64,000 bases of DNA from Xylogone sp. PMI_703 (Eukaryota; Ascomycota; Leotiomycetes): positions 372,001 through 436,000 of the forward strand of contig JAJTUQ010000001.1 of NCBI GenBank assembly GCA_021399445.1. Direction: 5' to 3'. The notes below the pieces were generated by a model. It was not told where the DNA came from, searched no databases, and worked only from the letters and a program-made list of their open reading frames with translations. The position numbers and the translations under genes were made by a program. Shown piece after piece: positions 2,826 through 64,000 of the stretch (its first letter is position 1; each line of letters begins with the position of its first letter).

Positions 2826-5800
2826 TTAACCCTTTCGTGATAAGAAATCCTGTGCCCAAAAAATGATCTCATCGATCATATTGCTAATATAAGAAGTGGT
2901 ATCGAAATATAAAACATCAATATCTTTGTATAACTCTTTGGATACCTCGACTTTCTCAATCTCCCGTTTAGCTTCCAGGACCAAGAAGCGGATCTTGTAA
3001 GAGGGTATATCCCGAATCATATCATTTTCCACGACGGTAAGAATGGGACCGGTACCAGAGTTTGTTCCGGCACCATCTAAGCCGTCCACCCTATAATTTA
3101 CTGCCTGTGATGCGTCTCTATCAATAGCTTGACTAAACCCCACAGACTTTGCATCCGAGATAAGAATACCAAGTCGTGTAGAAACTACGGAAGCTACTAA
3201 TGGGACCGCGGGAACTTGACAATCACCAAGCTGAATCAATGCTGAGCCACTGAGAGCGACAACGCGACGTTTTTGTGCCTGCTGTAGGCTACAGCGCCAA
3301 CCTGTTGAAACGAAGTGTCGAACAATCTGCTGTATCAAAGCCCTATCAGGAGCTTGAAGGCTTGAAAAGGTTTTAGACCACCGTTGTGACTTCTCGGTCT
3401 TAAAATCAAGCACATGACGAGTCGTGGACGTGTCAAACTGACGCTTGAAGTATTCCAAAAGCTTTACCGGAGGATTCTTTACCGGATCATCAGAGGCCTC
3501 CAAGAGCTTTAGCCAAGATGCTGTATCACATAGCTCAAACTCGAGCCCTGCTTGTCGTAAGTACGGAATAATCTCCCGAGTCCAGTGCAGAGTACAAGGG
3601 TTGACAAGATTGAACACTCCCGCCGCCGCATTAGAATTGGAAATCTCAATGGCAGATTGTGCAGTCAAGTCAACCGGCATCCATCTGAACTCCTCGTCTA
3701 TGTCTGGTAAGTGGCCGATCGTCCTTGCCGTTTGGATCATAAGAGGAATTGCCTCGGAGCTATTCCAGATACCGTGTGTGGTATCGCCTATAATCTGGCC
3801 AACTCGAAGGATATAAACTGGAATTCCAACTTGGTCAGCAGCATTTATGCAGATGTGCTCGGTCACTAGTTTCGATCGGCCGTATCCGGAGGATTGTGCG
3901 TTTGAGAAGCTGGTAGGAAGAGATTCTGGAACGCTTTTATCTTGGGTTCGTAGCACTGTACCTACAGAGGAGAAGAACGTGAAAGTTGCAGGAGCTTCTC
4001 CGTGTGCTTGGAGGCATAGGTCAATGAGGTTCTTGACGCCAGCGACGCAATCTCGCTCGAAGCTATTTAGTCGTAGGTTGAAATTGACGTTCCATGCGCT
4101 GTGATAAAGGACTGTGATTTCACTTGCAATCTTCTCGAATAGTTCGGGTTGGAGACCGAGTGACGGTAATGACAGATCACAGGGTAAGCTAATGATCTTT
4201 GTTCTATGAATGAGAGAAAGATTTGAATAGAGCCTCCGCGTGTGTAATGATCGTATTACCCGATGTTGCGCTTCTACTTGGGATGATGCTCTGACAAGAC
4301 AATATACGGTTTTGACTTCGTCAGATTGGATCAGAGTTGCCAATAGATGAGCACCTAGGGATCCTGTGGCACCAGTGAGAACCTTTGAAAAGAGAATTAG
4401 TTGAATGTTCAATAATGATTGAGATTGCTTACAGCATGTTGGTTCTCAGATGTTCTTGGACGGGGTATGTGCTGCTTGAAACAGCTATATTTCGTAATCA
4501 TACTACTGATTTGATTCTCCTCTGGCTGCGATATAAGCCTAGAACCATGATGGATTGAATATAGGTATTTTGACAAGGAGCGAGCGGACGGATAGTCGAA
4601 CACGACATTGAAGCCCAGTTTTTGTCCGCCGACCTTCCCTACGATGAAACGTCGTAGACGGCTAGCCTGGAGCGAATCCATCCCCAGTTCAAAGAAATCC
4701 GAATCTTGGGCTATTTGAGCTGGATATAATATCTTTGCTGCTTCTGAGAGGACCAGATCGCGGAGTTCCTCTTCACCCACTGGATGTTCCTCTTTGATCG
4801 TATCATCGCTCCTGTAAAATTCTTCGATTTCATTCTTGAACTCATTATAGAATACTTTCCGGACAACAGTATCCTTGTCAGTTTTTGGATAAGCAGTTCC
4901 ATGCGGAAGTACAATCACCATCTCTTTACTAATTTTAGCATATGCAGGTGTTGTAGCTTGCGCAGCCGCAATCGTAGACCAGAGTTGATCAATCAAGTCA
5001 TCTTTGGGTACATCGGACGCCATTGGGGAAGGTATTATTAACATCCCAGGGTAAGGTCTTCCTGCGCCAAATACTATTGCGGCGGATACCAATTGATCCT
5101 GCGCTACAGCTCCTTCCATATCAATTGGATTTACCTTTTCTCCATTCTCTAGAACAATTACATCGTCGTTCCGGCCACAGTACTTCCATGCGTCCAACGT
5201 TGGGTGTTTTATGAAAAGGTCCTTCGTTGCGTAAGACCCGTCGTCACGATTTGAAGCGGACTTGGAAGGTAATCCGTCCAGGCAAATTAGCTCATATCTT
5301 CCTTCCCCTGTTGGCTCGAAAGTAAGGTATGGCTTTGCTTCCTCAGTTGGACGTAGGTAATTCCAGTGTTTATCCCCTTGTGGCCTGGTGGACATCATCA
5401 GTGGGCCTGTCTCACTCCTGGGTTTATCATTAGTACATGACAATTAGACTTTCATTAGTGCTTGCATACATTCCATAGACGCTGACCAGGTTTATACCGC
5501 TCTCAGTTAAGAAGTCTCCAAGTCTGTCCGGACAGGGTGACCCTCCAAACGTCACCAATCTCAGCCGTTTCAACAACTCGACTCCCTTGTTAGATTCTGA
5601 GAGAATTTTGAGCGCGTATGGAACAGCAGCAAAGAGCTCAAAGTTATTTTCCTCTAATATCTGAACCAAGTAATCCTTAGTCAACGGTAAAGAGGTGTTA
5701 TAGAAGTAGACAGGCTTGCCGGTAATGATGGCACGGAATAAACTACCAATGCCATGGGTATGAAAGAGAGGTAATGTTAATAAGCATCTCAAACTCAGCT

Positions 5801-6425
5801 TGCTAATGTTCCTTTGATAATTTGCGAGTGCTCCCCGGTGTGTAATTCGAACTGGCTTGGGAAGGCCGGTCGAGCCACTAGAATGAAAGATCCACGCTGT
5901 GTTTTGACTCTCTGTGCTCATATCGAAAGATGGAGTGAGATTTGTGTCATCTTGGGAAATTGGACCGTCATATGCTACTTGTTTCGCAATCGGAATGCGG
6001 ACTACATCAGGGAAATCATATATCTTATCCTCAAATGCTTGTTGAAAGACAATATGTTTTGCACCCGTGTCACTTAGAAGCCGCCGGTAGGCTGGCTTAG
6101 TTAATCGAGGTGAAAGCAGCATGACAGTATGGCCTAGTTTGGTCAAAGCCAATAGAGTGATAACATAATCGAAGTCAGAGACACCCAACAATGCGATTAC
6201 AGCAGGTTTTTCACCTGATGATTTCCTAGCTGGGATAGTGGGCATGTATAGTTGGGCAACTCGTAAAGCGTAAGTATCTAGTTGGAGTGCACTATAGCCG
6301 ACATAGTTGACGCCAGAGGAAGGATAGAACAGCACTGACTGGCCCGAGTCTCGGCCTCCCTGGGTTCGTAGAAGTTCATCAATTGTATGGTAGGAGTTTG
6401 AGGACATATTGCATCCACTATGCAT
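2826..6425 (-). CDS. NRPS-like A-T-R carboxylic acid reductase
   Basis: About 1165 aa from exons 6425-5470, 5417-4433 and 4382-2826 (introns 52 and 50 bp; phases fit). Adenylation domain (roughly residues 10-520): SSGSTGLPKP, VYGMSETGP built across intron 1, and YCGRNDDVIVLENGEKVNP. Thiolation domain near residue 570: DSDFFELGMDSLQ, with the phosphopantetheine serine. Thioester-reductase domain from about 648: VLTGATGSLGAHLL NADP-binding loop and the YGRSK short-chain-reductase Tyr/Lys pair. There is no condensation domain. Family members activate one carboxylic acid as AMP ester, load it on the carrier and release it as aldehyde or alcohol. The start could also be the Met six residues downstream. 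It lies between a dehydratase and a dehydrogenase on the same strand, which suggests a small metabolite locus. The substrate cannot be read from the sequence. Confidence 0.93.
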
Positions 6426-7140
6426 TTTATCTTGAAATATAGATAGATAGTTTCCGTTTCATATGGCTATGGTTTAAGAAACGGCAATGCAGTTAATCTC
6501 AAAACAAAAACAGCCACATTTACTCCAGAAGCAATGAATGTACTATATATTACAACAAAATAAAAGCAGTATTAGCATCGGGCAATCCTGTTGTAGAAGG
6601 TGTCACGATGAGACCTGCTGGGCAGCTGGAGTTCTACGTGTGCCACATCTGTAGCACGTAGTGGAGAGAGCTCGGGTGAGACCCGAACTGTGGATTGAAA
6701 ACTCCCCGAGACCCATTTAGAGCGCGGACAAACTACGCTCTCCTGCGGTACGTAGCTCGTTAATAAGCTACGTTATATTTTCGTGCATTAGTGGAGTTAG
6801 AAGTAATTTATTATGTTTGGAAATTTATTGATGCTCTTAGTGTCTCCAGTTTATGTGGTCTGGTAGAACAGCATGGGGAGGCAACGGTGAAATGTTTCTC
6901 AATAATCACCGAGTATAATTACTCGCGATAATATCATTATCGAAAGGTTACTCTAGATAGTTCAGCACATAGATGACCCCCAGGTAAATTGTAACTGGCT
7001 TCAACAGTTGATTGCACGGATGCTGTTGTGGGAGTGCTCGGTATAGCTTAGAGTGGTCAAAGTACTCCTATAGTTGCATTAACGTAGATGCGTTTGTTGA
7101 TTAGGACCACCTGATGAATAATTCCATATTCTATATTCTA
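6426..7140. other. Intergenic, no gene seen
   Basis: Holds the promoter of the NRPS-like gene and the 3' end region of the dehydratase. No RNA gene or repeat recognised. Confidence 0.5.
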
Positions 7141-47390: not shown

Positions 47391-47952
47391 ATGAATACCA
47401 AATACTTTGTTTCCTTTGGCCTGGTTGTTGTTTCAGGTTTAACAGATGCCTTTCCCACACTTCGTGTGGAGAAACGGCAAACGTAAGTAGCCGATTAGCC
47501 TCATATACGAATATCATCCGACTACAAGAGCTAAGCCAGACACAGTTATAACGGCGTTGCTACCGTGAACCCCAACCCGACTAACGCATATGGCTCCTGC
47601 GGAGTCATCAGCCCCGATTCATCTTTGACCGTCGCTATCAGCAACACATGGATGCAAGGCCAGTGGCCCAGTCCTTATTGTGGCCGTCAGATTCAACTTA
47701 CGAACACTGGCCCCACGACTGACGGATCCATTGGCGGCGAGGGAAACTCAGTTCTTGTCGCTGTTGAGGACACATGCATGGGCTGTAATCAGACCCACCT
47801 CGACCTCTCTGTGGCTGCCTGGGATGCCCTCACCAATGGTGCGTCTTACAGTGTGGTCGGTATTTCTTGGTATGTACTAGTTACAATGCTGTAATCTTTT
47901 CATAAAACTGCGTGTGATGTGAACTAATCGATAATATAGGCAATTTGTGTGA
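47391..47952 (+). CDS. Small secreted double-psi beta-barrel (RlpA/expansin-like) protein
   Basis: 142 aa from exons 47391-47482, 47546-47869 and 47940-47952. A signal peptide (MNTKYFVSFGLVVVSGLTDA) is followed by a short propeptide ending in KR (VEKRQTYNG), a Kex2-type site. The mature part has YGSCG, ISNTWM, YCGRQIQLTN, VLVAVEDTCMGCNQTHLDLSVAAWDAL and a short last exon giving GISWQFV. The D.C.GC....LDLS pattern is that of the double-psi beta-barrel shared by barwin, RlpA, expansin and fungal papain-inhibitor-like proteins. About six cysteines fit disulfides. Fungal relatives are secreted and often expressed in plant contact, but no activity can be assigned from sequence. Confidence 0.88.
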
Positions 47953-48281: not shown

Positions 48282-49021
48282 CTAATTTTCTTTTCTAAGA
48301 GCTTTGACTCTGTTAGTTAGTCCATACACCCACTTTAAAGCTATAGTGCTACCGGTCATCAGGGAAGCTGAAATAATGCAAAGGAGTAACTTTTGCCAAG
48401 TGTGTAGTTGCATAAGGAGAGGATAAGGGTACCTGTGAACGTTGTTATTCATTGAGATAATACAACGCACAATTTTTATTGAGAAACCCACCATCCATTC
48501 TGCAAGAAACAGTACTCTACCCAACCCCAGTACGAGATGGCTAACACCAAGCCAAGCGATATAACACCGTAGACATCGATTGTCCACGGAGGACTCAGAA
48601 ACATCAGGTCCAGCGTCAGCACAATGGCTGGAACAGCGTGGAAGCCAAGATCTGGGATGAATGGAAGTTCATGACCAGGTGGTACGACGAACCTCCTATC
48701 AATGGTGTGAAGGGCCCAGTATAAGACAGTAACGAGAACTTCAAGAGGAGTCGCGCATATTGAGAGCCAGGATTTGAGATTATAAAGCGGCTTATAGGGT
48801 AGAACGTCCGCAAGGAGCCCAGTTCCGAAAGTTATTGTAGAAAGAGTTAGAGCGATGATGGTTAAGAACTGATACGATCCGCCAAATCCGCCATGAAGAG
48901 GGTTTGTAATATTAGGGAGCCACAAAAATGACGCCGTAAACGATAAAAGCCCAGCCAAGTGAAGGACAATAGAGAGGCTTCTGTGCGAAAGGGAAATATT
49001 ACGCAAATCGGTAGTTGTCAT
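48282..49021 (-). CDS. FAR-17a/AIG1-like integral membrane protein
   Basis: 226 aa from exons 49021-48492 and 48432-48282, phase 2 join giving NGWYPYP. Five or six hydrophobic segments, starting with SLSIVLHLAGLLSFTASFLW. The Thr in QFLTIIAL (about 54) and the His in LGFHAVPAIVL (about 128) sit where the human AIG1/ADTRP threonine hydrolases carry their catalytic Thr and His. The C-terminal YPYP motif is also a family mark. The animal proteins hydrolyse fatty-acid esters of hydroxy fatty acids, and fungal members are little studied. The gene is intact and short, as usual for the family. Confidence 0.82.
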
Positions 49022-50587
49022 GACCAGACCCTACAATTCAAAGATATCTGTGGAGCCCGTCTCGAACTACATGTAGCGAAGATGATAGATATGACGAGTA
49101 GATAAGGTTGAAAGACCGATAATATTGGAGACGGCTTCGACAGAACAAAAACAGTGAATTTGTATTCATGATTATAGTATTGGTTTAGAGGAGCCTTCTT
49201 ATTTCGCATTCGGCTATGTCAGGATCGGTTCGATATCACGCCGATCCTCTTTAATATCCGAATGTTGATTACTACAGCTAGATACAGGAGGACGGCACAC
49301 CTATGTTATGAGGAATAAGAGGAATATATATGATAATATGCCTTGAAAACATATGCGGAGAAGCTGACACTAAATGACTAACCACGGCACTTCGCTATAG
49401 GGTTTATATTTAAAGGTCTAATATAGTGCGGGTGTGACTATGTACCCAAGTGGACAAAACGATTCAAGCTTCGCAGCTAGGGTTACTACTCTAACGACTA
49501 GCAACGCAACTGTCTGAACAAAAGGAGAACTCTAGTTACCTAGCTACTTATACTGCTATATATCTGCGTTCTGACAGCAACATTGTTGAATAGGGAGCGA
49601 TCAGAGTTGTCTTGGCCTCTCTACAAGATACTATCTGAATAAGCTAGCATCTGTAGACATCCGTAAGACTCTGTTCCGACAAGAACACAGTCACCTGATA
49701 TAGGCTTACTTTGGTTCCAGCTTGTGTTACGCGTACGGTAAGATAACGAGATTCATTCCTACCCACCCCCGTAATACTTTGTCACCTACAAGGGCAAAAT
49801 TGGAGAATATTACAACGTCAATAAAACTCTCGTGCAAGATTGGGCAAGGATCGTGAGGACCCTATGAACTCAATTGGGAAATTTTATTATTTTTGGATTT
49901 CGCATACCAAGTTCGAGCAAATGGGAACGTCAGATTGGGGGTTTTCTGTGGATTGGTGGCAAGTATTAAGGGGGGAATAGTGCAGTAGTGTCATAAAATA
50001 GTAGCTTAGCAATTTCAATGTAGCCTTGGACGATTCAAGCGCTCTAATCATCGCCCGCGCGTGGTGTATGAAGAGGTTCAGATGCCGTAGTTAGCATGGA
50101 GACTTTATGATTATGGGGTTTCTGGTTACACGTCAGGGAGTTACTGTGGATTAAGCAGCCCTGTCTGGAAATCGCAAACGAAGTCGCTATCCTGTACCAG
50201 GTAAGACTCTCCGCCAAGTCAACCCCAGACCAGCTGATGATCCGTAATCTTACTCGCAGTACTAACTACACTCCTAATCCCCAATGTTAGAGTGTGATAC
50301 CTCCTAATAAGTATCCCATATCTCACTCTATCTACTGCAAGCATCAGCAATAACTATGGGCAGGTAGTCAGAATATAATATCCTATATTGTATATATTGT
50401 ATTTCGCACTTTAAACTGGAAGATCAACTACACCCCAATGCTTCCACCTCGTTGTTCGCTATACAGTCCGTTCAAGGGGCAACTTCCAGTAAGTCTCAGC
50501 AGTTCGACCACGAGGGAATTGCGTAATTCATTCCCACAAGCCATGACTTACTATCTCTGCTCTCGGATTAGTATATCCGCAATCTGT
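49022..50587. other. AT-rich intergenic, no gene seen
   Basis: 1.6 kb without a recognised gene or repeat, lying in front of the small repeat-peptide gene's 3' end. Confidence 0.4.
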
Positions 50588-50863
50588 TTAAATAACCTCG
50601 CGCTTCCAGTCAGGGTTGGAACCAGTTGAGCCGCGGCCTCCAAGAGCTTCACGTTTCCAGTCGGGGTTGGAACCGGTTGAACCACCACCTCCAAGCGGCT
50701 CGCGCTTCCAATCAGGATTAGATCCAGTAGACCCACCGCCTCCAAGAGGTTCACGCTCTACGAGTAAGTCGTGACGAGCCTGATTACCAGTTTCTGTCAC
50801 AGGCAGGGCGGACACGGGGACGGAGATTGCAAGACGCAATCCTAAAAGCTTGCTTCCCTTCAT
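50588..50863 (-). CDS. Kex2-type repeat peptide precursor (candidate secreted peptide/RiPP or pheromone-like)
   Basis: 91 aa, single exon. Residues 1-21 (MKGSKLLGLRLAISVPVSALP) form a modest signal-like segment. A leader follows to LLVER at 37. Residues 38-54, 55-71 and 72-88 are three tandem units: EPLGGGGSTGSNPDWKR twice and EALGGRGSTGSNPDWKR once. The last three residues are EVI. Each unit ends in the dibasic KR that Kex2 cleaves, so processing would free E-P/A-L-G...-N-P-D-W peptides of 15 residues. The three DNA repeats differ at many third positions while the peptide stays the same, as selection on the peptide would leave. The layout is that of fungal alpha-pheromone precursors and of ustiloxin-type (dikaritin) RiPP precursors. 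The core has no Tyr or Cys and only one Trp, and no UstY (DUF3328) gene was recognised nearby. Function unknown. Confidence 0.72.
   Translation of the reverse strand: MKGSKLLGLRLAISVPVSALPVTETGNQARHDLLVEREPLGGGGSTGSNPDWKREPLGGGGSTGSNPDWKREALGGRGSTGSNPDWKREVI
50600..50752 (-). repeat. Three 51-bp coding tandem repeats
   Basis: Units at 50752-50702, 50701-50651 and 50650-50600, in frame, each encoding one 17-residue peptide unit. Unit 3 has Ala for Pro at position 2 and Arg for the third Gly of the Gly run; other changes are synonymous. Confidence 0.9.
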
Positions 50864-51622
50864 GATAGATTGATAGCTGTTGGATTCAGAATAAAGAGGG
50901 AGTTTGATTTGCGCCTAAGTTTGTGTAGAGATTCTTTGGCTTATTGATTTACAGGAAACTGGAAAGTTACAATGGCAGTCTTCATGTATTACACTTTCTG
51001 ACCATGTAGACCAAGAATCAGGCCAGTATACTCAGTGTGATTCCAAATCTGAATATTGGAAGCATGTGCTTATGGAGTGAGCAAATTGTTCATTAGAGTA
51101 CGTCACAGCACGTAAATTCAATAGGACCGACTGCTAGGAAGGTAAAATCAAGTCTTGGCTGTTTATCGCTTTGCGCGTTTAACTTACCATATTCCTAATT
51201 AAGATTAATAGCGTAAGTGATATGGCAGATGTGAATGAAAACCTCAGCGTGCTGGGTAATGTTCATTTATGTTGACATATCTTCTACCATCCCTATAAAA
51301 ACACCCCTAACAATGTAATAACGAGGATGAAAGTGGATTTTAAAGTGGGTATTCGGTCAAATGTGACAAGCACTGCGCAAGCTTTGTATCCTTATTCAGG
51401 CAGTATTCATGCAGAAAGTATCCACAATATAAACGATTGGGCAATTAGAGCACTGAAACTCATAACATATTACTCTACCAACAGCAATTCCGTTAATTAA
51501 CCCTTAAAGTCTGGGATTACATCGATGTACACCGACGGACTAGATTTCTTCCAAATCATAGCAGCGTAATTTCTAGGTACCAAACATAACTGCCATTGAT
51601 TAATAAGTAAACATACTATGAG
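50864..51622. other. AT-rich intergenic, no gene seen
   Basis: Upstream region of the repeat-peptide gene and 3' flank of the amidohydrolase. Nothing recognised. Confidence 0.45.
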
Positions 51623-53089
51623 TTATTCTATTTTACCGTCTCTTCTAGATTTATCTTCGTCGAAGGCAGCCTTCATCTGCTGCGCCACTCCATCGTGGGC
51701 CAGCACTTTCCACCCGGTCATCGCCATCCCCTTTCCCACACCTATAGCGATATTACATGCGTCGGGGGTTCCGGCAGCTCGTGTAAAGTTTTGGTTATGA
51801 AGCGTTTCTCCCGGATCAGTCGGTATGCAGAAGCCCCCGTGAAAACTTGGACATACGTAAGACACATTTCCTAGAGGAGGGTCAGGAATCTGCATTTCAG
51901 CACAGTTTAAGTATGTGTCTCTTACCCATATCAGTACTATAAGGATCTGGTTGTTCTTTCTTTTTTTAAATCGAGGTTGAAGTCCAGTCCGTAGGCTTTC
52001 ATGGCTTGAGTAAATTCCTTGGCCAGGATTTCATTGGGTCTCAAATCCGCGTATGCAGCATGACTATTAACGAGTAACTAGATCTCAGCAATTTTCTCTA
52101 TCTAATATAAGGAAGGGGTGACTTGGTAGAGTACGGACAATTACCTTTTGTCGTAGTCAACGGAGCAACCGGTGGCAATTGCGGCGCCCTCTATACATTT
52201 GAGAGCCCGATCCTTGAGAGCCTGCAGTTCCTGGAGTGTGCGTGCTCGCACTGCGCACTCAATCTTTGCTCTATCGGCAATTACATTTTCTTTTGCGGTT
52301 TCATCAGTCCTTGTAATGACATTGATTCTCTCCGTCGGTTTTATATGTTGCCTTAACATGCCCAAGGCAGTGTATGCCAAAGTCGCAGCATCAAGTGCGT
52401 TGACTCCTGCCCAAGGTGCCATACCAGCATGTGCAGCCTTCCCTTTGAGAGTTGCTCCAAAATGCGAAATTGCAAGGCAGGTACTATAAGAGCTTCCGCT
52501 AATCCCATTTGGTAAGGAGGGCAATGGATGAATCATCAAAGCAGCGTCAGTATCATCAAATGCACCAGCTTCAATCAATTTGATTTTCCCACCACCACCT
52601 TCTTCAGCTGGAGTACCAAGTAGTCGAACTCGTCCGGGAATCGCTGATGCTTTAAGAGCAGCCATCAAACCAAAAAATGCCGCCACAGATGCAGTAGCAA
52701 TCAGATTGTGACCACACGCATGGCCGATGCCGGGAAGAGCGTCGTATTCTGCACAGAAGGTAACGAGCCGGCCTCCGCTACCATATTCTGCCAAGAAAGC
52801 AGTTGGAACTGCATAAGCATGAGACTGAGTGGTAATGTCATGTGAAAGAAGAAGTAGGACGATGTTGTCGTGTGCTTTGGTCTCTTGATAGCACAGCTCA
52901 GGATTATCATATATCTGCGCAACGGGTCATTCACATTTGTGAGCAGGTGGTCATATATCCTGGAAACTTTACCTTCTGGTTGATGTCAAACAGCTCCTCT
53001 CTCATACGGTCGACTTGTTCAGATATTTCTTGACCTATAAATCCATCATCCACTGATAGTGGAGCTACTGACTTTGTATTGTCATTCAT
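51623..53089 (-). CDS. M20-family amidohydrolase with one frameshift
   Basis: Four exons: 53089-52973, 52914-52145, 52063-51926 and 51870-51623. Motifs of the M20D group: FCAEYDALPGIGHACGHNL (metal ligands), LLGTPAEEGGGGK (catalytic Glu), AALMIHPLP, KGKAAHAGMAPWAGVNALDA (dimerisation domain), then STDMGNVSYVCPSFHGGF and the C-terminal metal region. About 423 aa would be expected. The summed exon length is one base too long: a run of seven T on the plus strand (51961-51967) puts exon 3 out of frame between LDLKK and EQPDPYS. Splice sites and all motifs are otherwise intact, so this is either a fresh null mutation or a sequencing error in a homopolymer. Family enzymes cleave N-acyl or aryl amides and small peptides. 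It opens the putative aromatic-catabolism stretch. Confidence 0.85.
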
Positions 53090-57191: not shown

Positions 57192-59872
57192 CTAGCGATC
57201 TTTAACACAACTTTCTGCTAGCTGACGAAGGTTTTCTGCTCCAACAAATCCCACTTCACTAAGAGTTCGTGGCATTTCCATTTCCCTAAAGAGAGCATCC
57301 AATATGTCACTGAGATCCGCTGAAGGGCCAACGGACCGCGATTTAAGAATATTGCATACATCCTCCTCTTGAAGTAAAAGATCACGGACTCTTTGTTGTC
57401 GCTCTTGATTACTGGAGATGTTGTACTGACATACAGCAGGTAGCTAAATACAACTGGTTTCTCCATGTCCCACGCCTAGTGGTCCCAATTGATGCCCAAT
57501 TCTGTGGCTAGCGCCTAGAGATACTCCCTTAGTGGCTTTCATAGCACTAATAACGCCAATCTGGCATTGAAATCGCGCGTCAAGATCCTGAGAATCTCTC
57601 TTGCAGCGTATAATTCCACGTATGAGACGTTGCAATCCCTCTTCCGCATCCTTGTCATTTGTTGGACTACTATCCAGGCTACATAAGGTCTCGATGCAAT
57701 GGTCTATAGATCGTACACCAGTACTAAGCCATGTCGAGAGTGGAGTAAGGATGCATATCTGGGGATCTAGGATGACGTGTACCGGGGAGGCCTTTGCCTC
57801 CTTAGTGATGTCGAGGACTTCTGACCATAGAGTATGCGACTTTAGCCCCACTCGTAGACCAGCATATGCCTCTCCAACGGAACATTTGAGATCTTCTACA
57901 GATGTAGTCCTCTGTGCCATAGAAGCAGATGCAAGAATTAGGACTTTTGAGGCCTTCACAACTTCTGTTGCATATTTGATGCATTCTGCAACCCAGGGTA
58001 CATTGTAGATGACAGAGGGCGTAATGTGTGGCCCAAAAGGATAATCCGAGAGTTTGCAGTATTGAGAAAGTTTATTGCCACCCGTGACATTGTTATTGGA
58101 TTGTATCTGCACCCACTCCTCAAAACCATTTTCCGCATTCGAAAGCACATCAAATCCAAGCAGACTAGATTGATAATCTGCATCTCCCCAACTCCATTCG
58201 CAGCTAGCATCCCACTCTAAATTGGGCAGCTCAACCAGCAGGTTATCACGCTCGATCTGTATTTCTCCGTCAGATAAATGGTAAAACTCCTGGCTCTGCA
58301 CAGCACCGAGAACATTGGTTTCTGTTCTTTCTTTCCTTAAACTTTCGTATAATTTAAGCAGTGAAGCCATTTGACTATTTCTCTCGCTTAGGTCTAGTGC
58401 CAGCAGTCTTCTGTTGAGTAGCTTGGCCAAGAGTAAACCAATAACGGCGCCATCCTCAACCGCCATGGCAGCCCCTTGAGCCTGATATGGTAGCGTTGGA
58501 TGAGATGCATCTCCCAGTAAAGCTATTGTGTTCTGTTCATTGATTACTCGTTAAATAAGCATTTGGATAAGAATTTGGAGAGCTATGTCTTTACCTTTGT
58601 CCATCTATCGAGCTCTTTGTAATGGCAAAGCTTCCATTTCAATGCCGTTTTCAAACAAGAGATCATCCTAGTGAGTCTATTCAACTTAGTTGATGAGGAA
58701 TTAACTTTCGCGATACATACATACGCTGGGTCCCATCCCTTGAAATTATCTGTCATTTCTTCAAGTACCTTGCTGGGTTCGGACGCCATCGGGTAAATTA
58801 TTTCTGCAGCTATTTATGTAATTACTTTCCCATAATTATTTCATAAGTGAGTGGTGAAACCTGAGACTTACATTAAAACAAGATTGTATTCGGTTTTATT
58901 TCTCACCGGGTAAAATACCACATGCTGGTTTGGCCCCATCCATACTTGTATTTTGGACGCTTCGACTAATTCGAGAATTCTTTCATCCTGAAATGACATT
59001 AGTTGTTCTCGAGAAAACGTGCCTCTGTACGCTAGATCGCCAGTCTCGGAAGGGGGTGATGGTCTGTCTATCTAGGATGGATTCTCGCAGTCGCGACCAG
59101 AGTCCTACGCATCATAATCAACCACTGGATTAAGATATTCGAGAGAGGCTTGCTACCATCAGCTCCGATTATAATATCTGCTGCTTTGCGTCTTCCATCC
59201 TTCAGAAGGACAATGCAGCCTCCGCAGTTACCCCAGCATTAGACTCAGAACCAACACCAACGACCTCAGCATTCTTCAGCAGACAGGCACCAGCATTCAG
59301 AGCTTCTTCTAGTAGTAGATTCTGATACTCTGCTCTATGGATAACTCTAGTATCATTTATATTGTCAATTATCTACCCGCTCAAGATCTTTCACCATTGA
59401 AGATACCCATATGATCATGTTTCAAGATGATCGGGACCAATAAGAGAAATATTAAGATACTTACAGCCACTCTGCGCCATAGATTTCTCTCATTCTATCT
59501 CCTAGCGGCTTCTCAACAACTACTCTCCCGTCTGAATACCTTCTAAGGGTATACTGCTCCATGGTTATTGCGCCACTCTCCTTCATCTTTTCGAGTAGTC
59601 CAAGATGACTTATTATCCTAGTTGCATTCGGCGGAAGCTGAATGCCTGCCCCGACCGGGAGCATATCTGGAGCTCGTTCAAGGATTGTAACTGCGAGAAG
59701 TAGATTGCCCTGGCGACACGCGAGTGCACATGTCAACCCCCCGAGTTCGGCGCCGACAATAACGACATGTAGACTCTTATGGTCTTGCTATGGTTGAGAC
59801 GCTGAAGTAAGAATTTTGACTCATAAATACCACAATGATTGTACTAACAAGTTCTCCAGAAATATCAGCCAT
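57192..59872 (-). pseudogene. Salicylate hydroxylase - maleylacetate reductase fusion, multiply damaged
   Basis: The upstream part reads as an FAD salicylate-hydroxylase-type monooxygenase across several phase-consistent introns: LHVVIVGAELGG, AGIQLPPNATRI, VIHRAEYQ, GADGLWSRLRESILD, TGDLAYRGTF, LKWKLCH, ALLGDASHPTLPYQAQGAAMAVEDGAVIG. The same frame runs on without a stop into an iron-type alcohol dehydrogenase/maleylacetate reductase: VPWVAECIKYA, VILDPQICILTPLSTWLSTGVRSIDHCIE, GASHRIGHQLGPLGVGHGET. Lesions: GAELGG for the FAD-loop GAGLGG (59746-59748); frame breaks near 59211-59225, 59050-59076 and 58761-58772; loss of about 65-75 residues with the GGGS nucleotide loop near 57778-57795; and a TAG at 57444. 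After the TAG the frame stays open to a natural-looking C-terminus at 57192. The ancestor would hydroxylate an aryl acid with CO2 loss and reduce maleylacetate. Divergent from the dioxygenase gene. Confidence 0.82.
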
Positions 59873-60279
59873 GGCACCTATGAATAACTTGTTGAATTCA
59901 CAGGGAGCTTAGTTACTACGAAGAAAATAAATAAGCCGAGTGAAGTGAATTGAACAAGTTTGCAGCCAACGCTGAAAGCAGATTTCAAGTTATTAAACTA
60001 ATAAATGCATATCTTCGCCTCGCTATTGAAACTAAGGATGAATCTCGTCCTAGATATCCCCTTTCCGTTGCTTGGCCGATATCAATGACACATTCCGGAT
60101 ACCACCTTCCGACAACATATTCCGGGCTGTGGATATCAGCGGCGAACGAACAATAACATTTTCCAAACTCCTCTGTGTTAACCAATTTGATATGAACGAT
60201 CAATTCCATCATCAATTGTGTCGACAACAAATTCACCAAACCATTTGTTACAGCTCATCTATCCCTTTCATAAGCCAAA
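59873..60279. promoter_or_regulatory. Divergent intergenic between monooxygenase fusion and dioxygenase
   Basis: 407 bp between head-to-head start codons, probably a shared promoter region. No operator or TATA box stands out clearly enough to place. Confidence 0.45.
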
Positions 60280-61699
60280 ATGCCAACTACTAAATTCTCA
60301 GTCGCTGAGAAATATGAATACAAGAACGGATTTGGGTCATATCATGAGTAATATTCCATAATTTTGATCAGGTTTGTCCTATATCTAACTCTGTTGTTCT
60401 AGATCCGAGGCCATTAAAGGTGCCCTGCCAATCGGGGCTGCTTCACCTCAAAAGCCGCCATATGGCCTGTATGCAGAAAAGGTCTCTGGAACGCCATTTA
60501 CTGCTCCTAGGGCAGAAAATTTACAGTCATGGTTATATCGAATCATACCTGCATCTGCACATGAGCCTTTTATTCCGTATCAGAGCAAAAGTAAGACTCC
60601 CAGAGAACAAAAAATGCACTACATTCCCAATCAGCTTCGCTGGAGTCCTTTCAAAGTGGACAATGAGCTAGATTGGCCAAACTCAATACACCTGGTAGCT
60701 GGTGCTGGTGATGTAACACTGAAACAAGGCTTTGGGATTATGGTGTTTGTAATGGGGAAATCCATGGATCCAAACGAGGCATTCTCGTCTGCGGATGGTG
60801 ATTTCCTTATAGTACTCCAACAAGGCATCCTGGATATTCAGACTGAGTTTGGCCACTTATTAATTCGGCCAAACGAGATCTGCGTAATCCCTAGGGGCAT
60901 TCGTTATCGTGTTATGCTGCCGCAGAGCTATGCTAGAGGATACATTCTTGAACTTTACGAAGGCCACTTCAGGCTTCCGGAGTTAGGACCTATTGGATCC
61001 CAGTCTCTTGCAAATGCTCGTGATTTCCAAGCGCCGACCGCAGCATATGACCACGATACATCCAAGGAATGGCAGCACATTACGAAATTTAACAATAACT
61101 TTTTTGTAGCAAAACAGGATCATACTCCATTTGATGTTGTCGCTTGGCATGGAAGCTACTACCCCTATAAATATGACCTTGGAAGGTTCAACACCATCGG
61201 TAGCATCTCATACGATCATCCTGACCCTAGTATTTTTACCGTTTTAACAGCACCATCTGCTCACGTCGGCACGGCTATTACCGATTTTGTGATTTTTCCA
61301 CCAAGGTGGCTGGTCGCTGAGGACACATATCGCCCGCCTGAATTCCACCGAAATGTTATGTCCGAGTTCATGGGTTTGATCCACGGTGAATATGATGGTA
61401 AGGTCGGAGGAGGGTTCCAGCCATTTGGTGCAAGCCTACACAATATAATGAGTGCTCATGGCCCAGATTCGGAAACTCATCAGAAAGCAACTGCTGAGAT
61501 ATTGCAACCACGAAAGGTTGGTGGAGGAAGTATGGCATTCATGTTCGAAAGCTACTATATGATAGGCATTTCCGAATGGGGGCTCAACGAATGCAGTGCT
61601 ATCCAGGACGACTACATCATCCAGAGTTGGAAAGGTCTGAAGCCTTCGTTTACACCACTCAAAGATGTTGAGAATTACCGTGAAAGTAGTGATATCTAA
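60280..61699 (+). CDS. Homogentisate 1,2-dioxygenase
   Basis: 454 aa from exons 60280-60347 and 60403-61699. The N-terminus [21 protein letters not shown] is built across the intron. It continues with [79 protein letters not shown] and [23 protein letters not shown]. The iron ligands of the human enzyme (His335, Glu341, His371) correspond to the His and Glu in [11 protein letters not shown] and the His in SAHGPD; all are present. The enzyme opens the ring of homogentisate to maleylacetoacetate in tyrosine and phenylacetate breakdown. It is intact, unlike its divergent neighbour. The usual fungal partners fumarylacetoacetate hydrolase and maleylacetoacetate isomerase are not next to it; a copia remnant follows instead. 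It may be a paralogue used on another dihydroxyaryl acid. Confidence 0.94.
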
Positions 61700-62849: not shown

Positions 62850-63969
62850 CCTGTGCAATCAGACCTAATTGTTTCACGAACTTTGCGTGTTTTTCCCTGT
62901 TGAATGGTTTCGTCAAGCCATCTGCCACCATATCGCTACCCGATATATACTAAACCTTCACCTTCTTCCGTTGAACCATCTCCATAATCCATTTATACCG
63001 AATATCGATACATCTAGTTCTGGCCGCGTTGAGGAGATTCATGACATTTATATAGACATTCGCGCTATCGGTGAATAATATAAGTGATATTGGTTGCTCA
63101 TAGCCAAATTCTTTAATAATTTGAGCTACCCATTAAGCTGAGAGAGCCACAGGCGTTAGATTCGTAAATTCCGCTTCTGTACTACTGAGAGCCACATAGG
63201 TCTGTTTCTTGCTTTTCCATAATACTGGTCCTCCCGCAATAAACACCACATACGCTCCTGTAGAATATCTCGTCAATAAATCGTCTGCGAAAGATGCGTC
63301 CACATACGTGCATAGATTCAAGTCCGTAAGACTGAATTTGCCTCCATACACTATACCCAAGGCAGCTATAGCACTTAGATATCTAAATAAATACTTTAAT
63401 AATATCAAGTGTTGCTCTGAAGGGCCGGAATTGGCTTCACAAAGACGAGAAACAGTATATATAATATCAGGACATGTTCCAACCGCAAAATAATTCACGG
63501 AGCCAATCTTTTTAATATAAAGTTTAGTTTTTGTAGTTATCGGTTCCCAGGTACATGACAACTCCAAGTTCGATGGCCATAATGTTTTAGCTTCGTTCAG
63601 ATCCTGATAACCGTATTTCAATAACATAGTCTTCGTATATGCCTCTTGGGAAAGGAAAACAGTACGTTTATCACGATCACGTATAATATCAATACCTAAG
63701 AATCTTTTCACCTCTCCCACTTCTTTCAATTCGTAATAACCACATAATAAATCTCTAATTTCCATGATATCTTCCTTTCTCAGAGCCACAATCAACAGAT
63801 CATCAACATACAAGATAACTAGTATGCCCTTCGCGTCATATCTAAATAAGCACAAGTCCGATTCGAATGAGCAGAATCCGAGCTCCTTCATCACCGGCAA
63901 TATCGTTAAAAACCAGTACAGTAAACTCTTTTTCAGACCATAAAATGCTCTTTTCAATTTCCACACCAT
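62850..63969 (-). mobile_element. Ty1/copia reverse transcriptase/RNase H remnant
   Basis: The minus strand encodes the end of a copia polyprotein, running in from beyond the window edge. RT motifs: KRAFYGLKKSLLYWF and LVILYVDDLLIV, where YVDD is the catalytic pair. LGIDIIRD, SVNYFAVGTCPDIIYTVSRL and the RNase H start (YVDASFADD, VALSSTEAEF) follow. Beyond a TAA at about 63133 the RNase H part goes on with EFGYEQPISLILFTDS. After another TAG the terminal SGSDMVADGLTKP motif is seen. Both stops are where relatives have Gln, fitting C-to-T damage. The element is therefore inactive. Confidence 0.88.
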
Positions 63970-64000
63970 ATTATCGCCTTCAATAAAGCCCTAGGGCTAT

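Follow-up and report, generated by a model that had tools for sequence, protein, structure and literature searches.

Coding potential of the repeat locus

What is made from a short frame that carries three near-identical units, and does it belong to a known kind of fungal secreted peptide? This was the question raised by positions 50588..50863 of the window (the whole 64,000-nucleotide stretch analysed here, from Xylogone sp. PMI_703), where a tiny precursor with three 17-residue units separated by Kex2 sites had been proposed. Translation of both strands gave an uninterrupted ORF (P0001; 91 codons and a stop) at exactly this place, on the minus strand from the ATG at 50863 to the stop at 50588; the same frame of the plus strand was closed across the interval. 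The P0001 protein consists of MKGSKLLGLRLAISVPVSALPVTETGNQARHDLLVER, two copies of EPLGGGGSTGSNPDWKR, EALGGRGSTGSNPDWKR, and a terminal EVI, and an independent Tandem Repeats Finder report placed an array at 50601-50757 with a period of 51 and 3.1 copies. A scan covered the window and stretches of 80, 40, and 40 kb elsewhere in the genome; among its 2,949 open frames with 40 or more codons, two had at least two similar fragments between dibasic sites, namely P0001 and a paralogue described below. No frame with such a repeat pattern occurred in 30 random windows generated by first-order Markov resampling of the window.

Each of the three 17-residue units ends in DWKR. The proposed layout stood in that KR closes all three units, but the boundary between the leader and unit 1 is VER, a monobasic junction with a single Arg, so that P0001 has three dibasic sites, and KR flanks units 2 and 3 on both sides but unit 1 only at its end. 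Unit 3 differs from units 1 and 2 by two replacements, P to A (EP to EA) and G to R (GGGG to GGRG). The units start with EP, EP, and EA, which are Ste13-type XP/XA dipeptides and follow KR in units 2 and 3; this signature was absent from the original prediction. At the signal-like start, whose cleavage site was placed by eye, the best 12-residue mean hydropathy was 1.96 compared with 2.38 in a paralogue (P0002), and Arg10 lies inside the h-region (LLGLRLAIS). Neither P0001 nor P0002 matched Pfam at E 0.001. The features are listed in Table 1.

Table 1 Features of the P0001 locus, its paralogue, and related loci in Xylogone sp. PMI_703. Positions are those of the window unless another stretch or contig is named.
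Feature	Position	Strand	Basis or remark
KEP-type precursor ORF P0001	50588..50863	-	end-to-end alignment with paralogue P0002
Putative signal peptide MKGSKLLGLRLAISVPVSA	50807..50863	-	cleavage after A19, placed by eye
Pro-leader LPVTETGNQARHDLLVER, single-Arg end (ER)	50753..50806	-	counterpart in paralogue, IPVTESGIQARDDALLER
Unit 1, EPLGGGGSTGSNPDWKR	50702..50752	-	translation, unit comparison
Unit 2, EPLGGGGSTGSNPDWKR	50651..50701	-	differs from unit 1 by 13 silent changes and no replacements
Unit 3, EALGGRGSTGSNPDWKR	50600..50650	-	translation, unit comparison
C-terminal tail EVI and stop	50588..50599	-	EVD in paralogue
Upstream block, 212-369 bp before ATG	51075..51232	-	blastn against upstream region of paralogue
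End of unit 3 and 3' flank	50529..50617	-	blastn against paralogue
DPBB/expansin-like ORF	47535-47894		near P0001
FAR-17a/AIG1-like protein	48476-49030		near P0001
M20-type peptidase	52141-52926		near P0001
Paralogue P0002	5,903,719-5,903,928, same contig as P0001	-	genome search
DPBB protein near paralogue	L006:6217-7254
Alpha-pheromone precursor candidate	L054 2227-2943, contig 12		frame from MRLASVLTVVTLTAAINAAAIP; found among the motif matches listed

A paralogue with a similar leader and different units

The genome comprises 25 contigs (50.1 Mb) and comes from a genus classed as Leotiomycetes incertae sedis; it contained one further matching locus, P0002. Searches of the same genome with the whole of P0002 and with its leader, at E up to 10, returned these two loci and no third. 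P0002 consists of MKAIKLLGLLLAISMPVSAIPVTESGIQARDDALLER, three copies of GSSNNADWKR, and EVD. Its three units are identical as peptides and have 10 residues (8 without KR), whereas those of P0001 have 17; the two leaders are 73% identical over 37 residues. N, one variable residue, D-W, and KR are common to all six units, and the expectation that homologues would keep the spacing of KR while varying the core was borne out within this genome. P0002 units have no Ste13-type dipeptide, indicating that the pair does not depend on Ste13 trimming.

Homology between the two loci extends through the 5' leader and into both flanks (blastn). The upstream blocks, which lie at equal distance from the ATG, are identical in 109 of 160 columns (E 9e-7), and the 3' flanks in 67 of 90 (E 2e-8). 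When the frames of the window were compared with 80 kb around the paralogue at E 0.001, only the precursors and a distant pair of DPBB proteins matched; one further plus-strand match was the opposite strand of the precursors. These results indicate that the gene was copied with its own promoter region and not as part of a large segment. The 68% identity of the upstream block is, by our judgement and not by computation, near that of neutral DNA at the synonymous divergence of the leaders (dS 0.48), and we therefore take it as a sign of flank duplication rather than of promoter conservation. The upstream block of the paralogue contains a CGG-N5-CCG palindrome, presumably a Zn2Cys6-type site, which is degenerate in the P0001 copy.

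Probable KEX2-processed repeat proteins and their predicted products

The name KEX2-processed repeat proteins (KEPs) was introduced in 2019 for secreted proteins in which three or more repeats, diverse in their cores, are set apart by KR (Le Marquer 2019, PMC6339444). A survey of 1461 strains followed in 2020, taking three or more tandem repeats with a minimum length of 8 residues as its criterion; it counted 7878 KEPs in 1345 strains, and 2560 of these KEPs had no homologue (Umemura 2020, PMC7329392). P0001 has three such repeats of 17 residues and P0002 three of 10. P0001 also resembles KEPs as those accounts describe them in its small size, its signal-like start, and KR at the end of each tandem unit; its core is unlike the ones described there, although a relative may be among the KEPs counted, and orphan status is frequent among KEPs. 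The KEP definition places the repeats between KR, RR, KK, or RK sites. In P0001 KR follows all three units, but a single Arg precedes the first, so that two units remain if a dibasic site is strictly required at either end. Taking these features together, we consider that P0001 is probably a KEP, a precursor of secreted and probably unmodified linear peptides. The suggestion that it might represent a new class is accordingly not upheld, since this kind of protein was already named in 2019 and counted in 2020.

By analogy with published KEPs, the P0001 product would be taken into the secretory pathway and cut by Kex2 after each KR, which Kex1 would then strip off. A Ste13-type dipeptidyl aminopeptidase could trim the N-terminal EP or EA. 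The predicted products are mainly LGGGGSTGSNPDW (13 residues) and one LGGRGSTGSNPDW, and GSSNNADW from the paralogue; their common C-terminal N-[P/A]-D-W is likely the functional, recognised end. Calculated MH+ values are 1204.5229 for LGGGGSTGSNPDW (1430.6182 if EP is retained), 1303.6025 for LGGRGSTGSNPDW, and 850.3326 for GSSNNADW. The genome gave one match to the Kex2 P-domain, a partial one (positions 1-57 of 86). Release of unit 1 would require a monobasic cut at ER, failing which unit 1 would remain on the leader. In the Coprinopsis study, a KEP whose cores have a C-terminal Trp (QYKAPSW) was expressed in Pichia and cut at RR, its Ste13 dipeptides were found trimmed by mass spectrometry, and several of its products apparently came from single-Arg cuts (PMC9769878), suggesting that unit 1 could be released at VER. 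C. cinerea KEP 490115 and the basidiomycete KEPs described in that source share with P0001 a Trp at the end of the core and a Ste13-type dipeptide that follows the dibasic site, and the "XSDW" motif of PMC6339444 has its DW end in common with P0001. The C-terminal-Trp KEPs are from Basidiomycota, and their likeness to P0001 may be convergent.

Alternative readings: modified or uncut products

Dikaritin precursors (ustiloxin, asperipin, and phomopsin type) have the same layout as P0001, a signal followed by Kex2-bounded repeats, and P0001 might therefore be the precursor of a dikaritin-like RiPP modified in trans by a UstY-type oxidase encoded elsewhere. At E ≤ 0.001 the genome contained 108 exon-level matches to UstY (PF11807), so candidate enzymes are plentiful. 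Nevertheless, the nearest one to P0001 was at 1,012,849 of contig 1, 590 kb away, and the nearest to the paralogue was at 6,851,520, 948 kb away, in agreement with the earlier remark that no UstY gene is recognisable nearby; the check for DUF3328 near a homologue likewise gave none within 948 kb of the paralogue. None of the six units of P0001 and P0002 contains Tyr, the residue used for cyclisation in dikaritin cores typically though not universally. For comparison, DUF3328 genes were counted near 22% of KEP genes at a mean distance of 3.09 genes (PMC7329392). A dikaritin-like product is thus unlikely, and because no UstY match lies nearby, unmodified linear peptides are the most likely products. 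Several of the UstY matches fell into tight groups, near 6.85 and 8.1 Mb of contig 1 and near 0.68 and 6.67 Mb of contig 20; these groups are possible RiPP clusters.

P0001 might also be a small secreted repeat protein that stays uncut and serves at the wall or surface, a role in keeping with its Gly/Ser/Asn-rich units and monobasic first junction. Against this, KR is kept at the ends of 6/6 units in two genes despite their different core sequence and length. An uncut protein is about as improbable as a dikaritin-like RiPP, and the KEP assignment remains our preferred reading.

Apparent selection on the units

The window copy might also be an unexpressed or decaying relic, with the paralogue as the working gene. 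Arg10 in the h-region, the lower hydropathy of the P0001 start, and the drift of unit 3 at two residues would fit such decay, whereas the frame of P0001 is intact and its substitution pattern points the other way. Silent to replacement differences among the unit pairs of P0001 were 13:0 (units 1/2), 7:2, and 9:2, and among those of P0002 5:0, 6:0, and 4:0. Were silent and replacement sites hit at random, all 13 differences between units 1 and 2 would be silent with a probability near 3e-8. The leaders of P0001 and P0002 gave dN 0.16 and dS 0.48 (dN/dS ~0.33). The excess of silent changes over replacements supports selection on the peptide in the P0001 units and makes a relic somewhat less credible still than the two readings above. 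Third-position change with an unaltered peptide, as originally pointed out, describes units 1 and 2 but not unit 3, which carries two replacements.

The silent differences also bear on the age of the units. Between P0001 units 1 and 2, 13 of 16 same-residue codons differed silently, compared with 7 of 26 between the two leaders (Fisher p 0.001), while the other five unit pairs, which like all these pairs are not independent, showed no clear difference from the leaders (p 0.05 to 0.48). If the excess is real, the units would predate the gene duplication, and their length would later have changed in all three together, a conclusion for which the sample is too small. Faster silent change in the units or gene conversion in the leader are alternatives that would produce the same excess.

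A candidate mating pheromone precursor of Xylogone sp. PMI_703

The reading of P0001 as an alpha-type mating pheromone precursor is very improbable, even though ppg1-type precursors share with it a signal-like start, a leader, KR-bounded repeats, and Ste13-type EP/EA after KR, because its core lacks Cys as well as a GQ or PG pair and a separate candidate is present on contig 12. In Leotiomycetes the vast majority of mature alpha-pheromone repeats contain a GQ or PG pair, and the examples given have two Cys (PMC10569646). Two narrow motif searches of the genome gave 14 and 6 matches (controls 5 and 5) with no KR-repeat ORF recognisable by eye, a lack of a canonical precursor that by itself favoured the pheromone reading of P0001. 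The wide motif C-x3-G-Q-x-C gave 234 matches (control 104), and among the ca. 100 listed was a cluster of four within 0.56 kb of contig 12; a further copy may lie among the remaining matches. The frame on contig 12 has five divergent C-x3-G[QE]-x-C units (CTRIGQNC, CTQVGQSC, CTRVGEGC, CTRFGQSC, and CIRIGQPC) with EP/EA-rich spacers. Ste2 was represented by two adjacent matches that constitute one gene on contig 23. The earlier exclusion of an alpha-pheromone therefore agrees with our results, and with a separate pheromone candidate and no UstY match nearby, P0001 is unlikely to be either the mating pheromone or a clustered dikaritin precursor.

Homologues and literature

A search of ca. 5.8 billion proteins with P0001, by a method that relies on shared short words, returned 156 candidates, none at E ≤ 1, and P0001 itself was absent. 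With a two-sequence profile of P0001 and P0002, 707 candidates were obtained from the same number of proteins and none reached E ≤ 10, P0001 and P0002 themselves included. Since Ste2 of Xylogone sp. PMI_703 is present in this collection, the absence of the precursor suggests that it is unannotated there in the form read here. The profile also gave 23 pattern stretches in prokaryote genome contigs and 13 in viral contigs, with none confirmed in either; fungal sequence is not expected in these collections. "DWKR" alongside Kex2 gave nothing in the open-access literature, in a search of text outside figures and supplements, and the name Xylogone sp. PMI_703 occurs in a paper on horizontal transfer. 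Within the protein collection searched the pair stands as an orphan, yet its kind has been known since 2019. The single-Arg leader junction and the missing annotation suggest that such genes could be hidden from published pipelines.

Possible role

Tentatively, the most likely role of the peptides is that of secreted signal or interaction peptides that would act outside the cell, distinct from mating. Six Coprinopsis KEPs were reported to have been knocked out with no detectable phenotype (PMC9769878), and hence a subtle or biotic role is likelier than a vital one. More speculatively, P0001 and P0002 might belong to a cassette family of unmodified signalling peptides in the Xylogone lineage, with a shared leader and promoter region and interchangeable cores ending in N-[P/A]-D-W, in which all three units of a gene were switched together between 17 and 10 residues; we hold this to be doubtful. 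If it were true, a filamentous ascomycete would possess a peptide hormone system outside mating, with a receptor proper to it. Most fungal KEPs are known as predictions only. With one leader and two cores, and with Ste2 and an alpha-pheromone candidate located in the same genome, the pair offers unambiguous masses to look for and a straightforward way, by knockout, of asking whether non-mating KEP peptides have any effect.

Genomic neighbourhood

Besides the neighbours in Table 1, an NmrA-like protein and homogentisate dioxygenase are encoded around P0001, and none of the ten frames scanned there resembled a peptide-modifying enzyme. The neighbours of the paralogue are a Dre2-like protein, a formyltransferase, a short-chain dehydrogenase, and a DPBB protein. 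DPBB_1 had four matches in the genome at E ≤ 0.001, two of which lie near the precursor genes, at distances of 2.8 and 6.3 kb; these two scored 25.5 and 26.1 bits, under the curated cut-off of 28.8 bits. The two precursor-adjacent DPBB proteins are 29% identical to each other over 69 residues. That of the window is 74% identical over 114 residues to a DPBB protein on contig 12, and the best match of that near the paralogue (36% over 109) is at 2.79 Mb of contig 1. Co-duplication of DPBB and precursor genes is unlikely, as each of the two DPBB proteins has a closer relative elsewhere in the genome. The 40-kb stretches around the DPBB genes of contig 12 and of contig 1 at 2.79 Mb contained no KR-repeat frame. 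We regard the proximity of DPBB genes to both precursors as a coincidence noticed after the fact, to which no probability is attached.

Elsewhere in the window, frames at 2826-6458 resemble, by eye, an NRPS-like adenylate-forming reductase (AMP-binding, carrier, and NAD-binding parts). At 57444-61699, the C-terminus of an iron-containing alcohol dehydrogenase (maleylacetate-reductase-like by eye) lies behind monooxygenase-like sequence; this group adjoins homogentisate 1,2-dioxygenase and is perhaps an aromatic-degradation group. A fragment of a Copia-type reverse transcriptase was recognised by eye at the end of the window (63133-63990).
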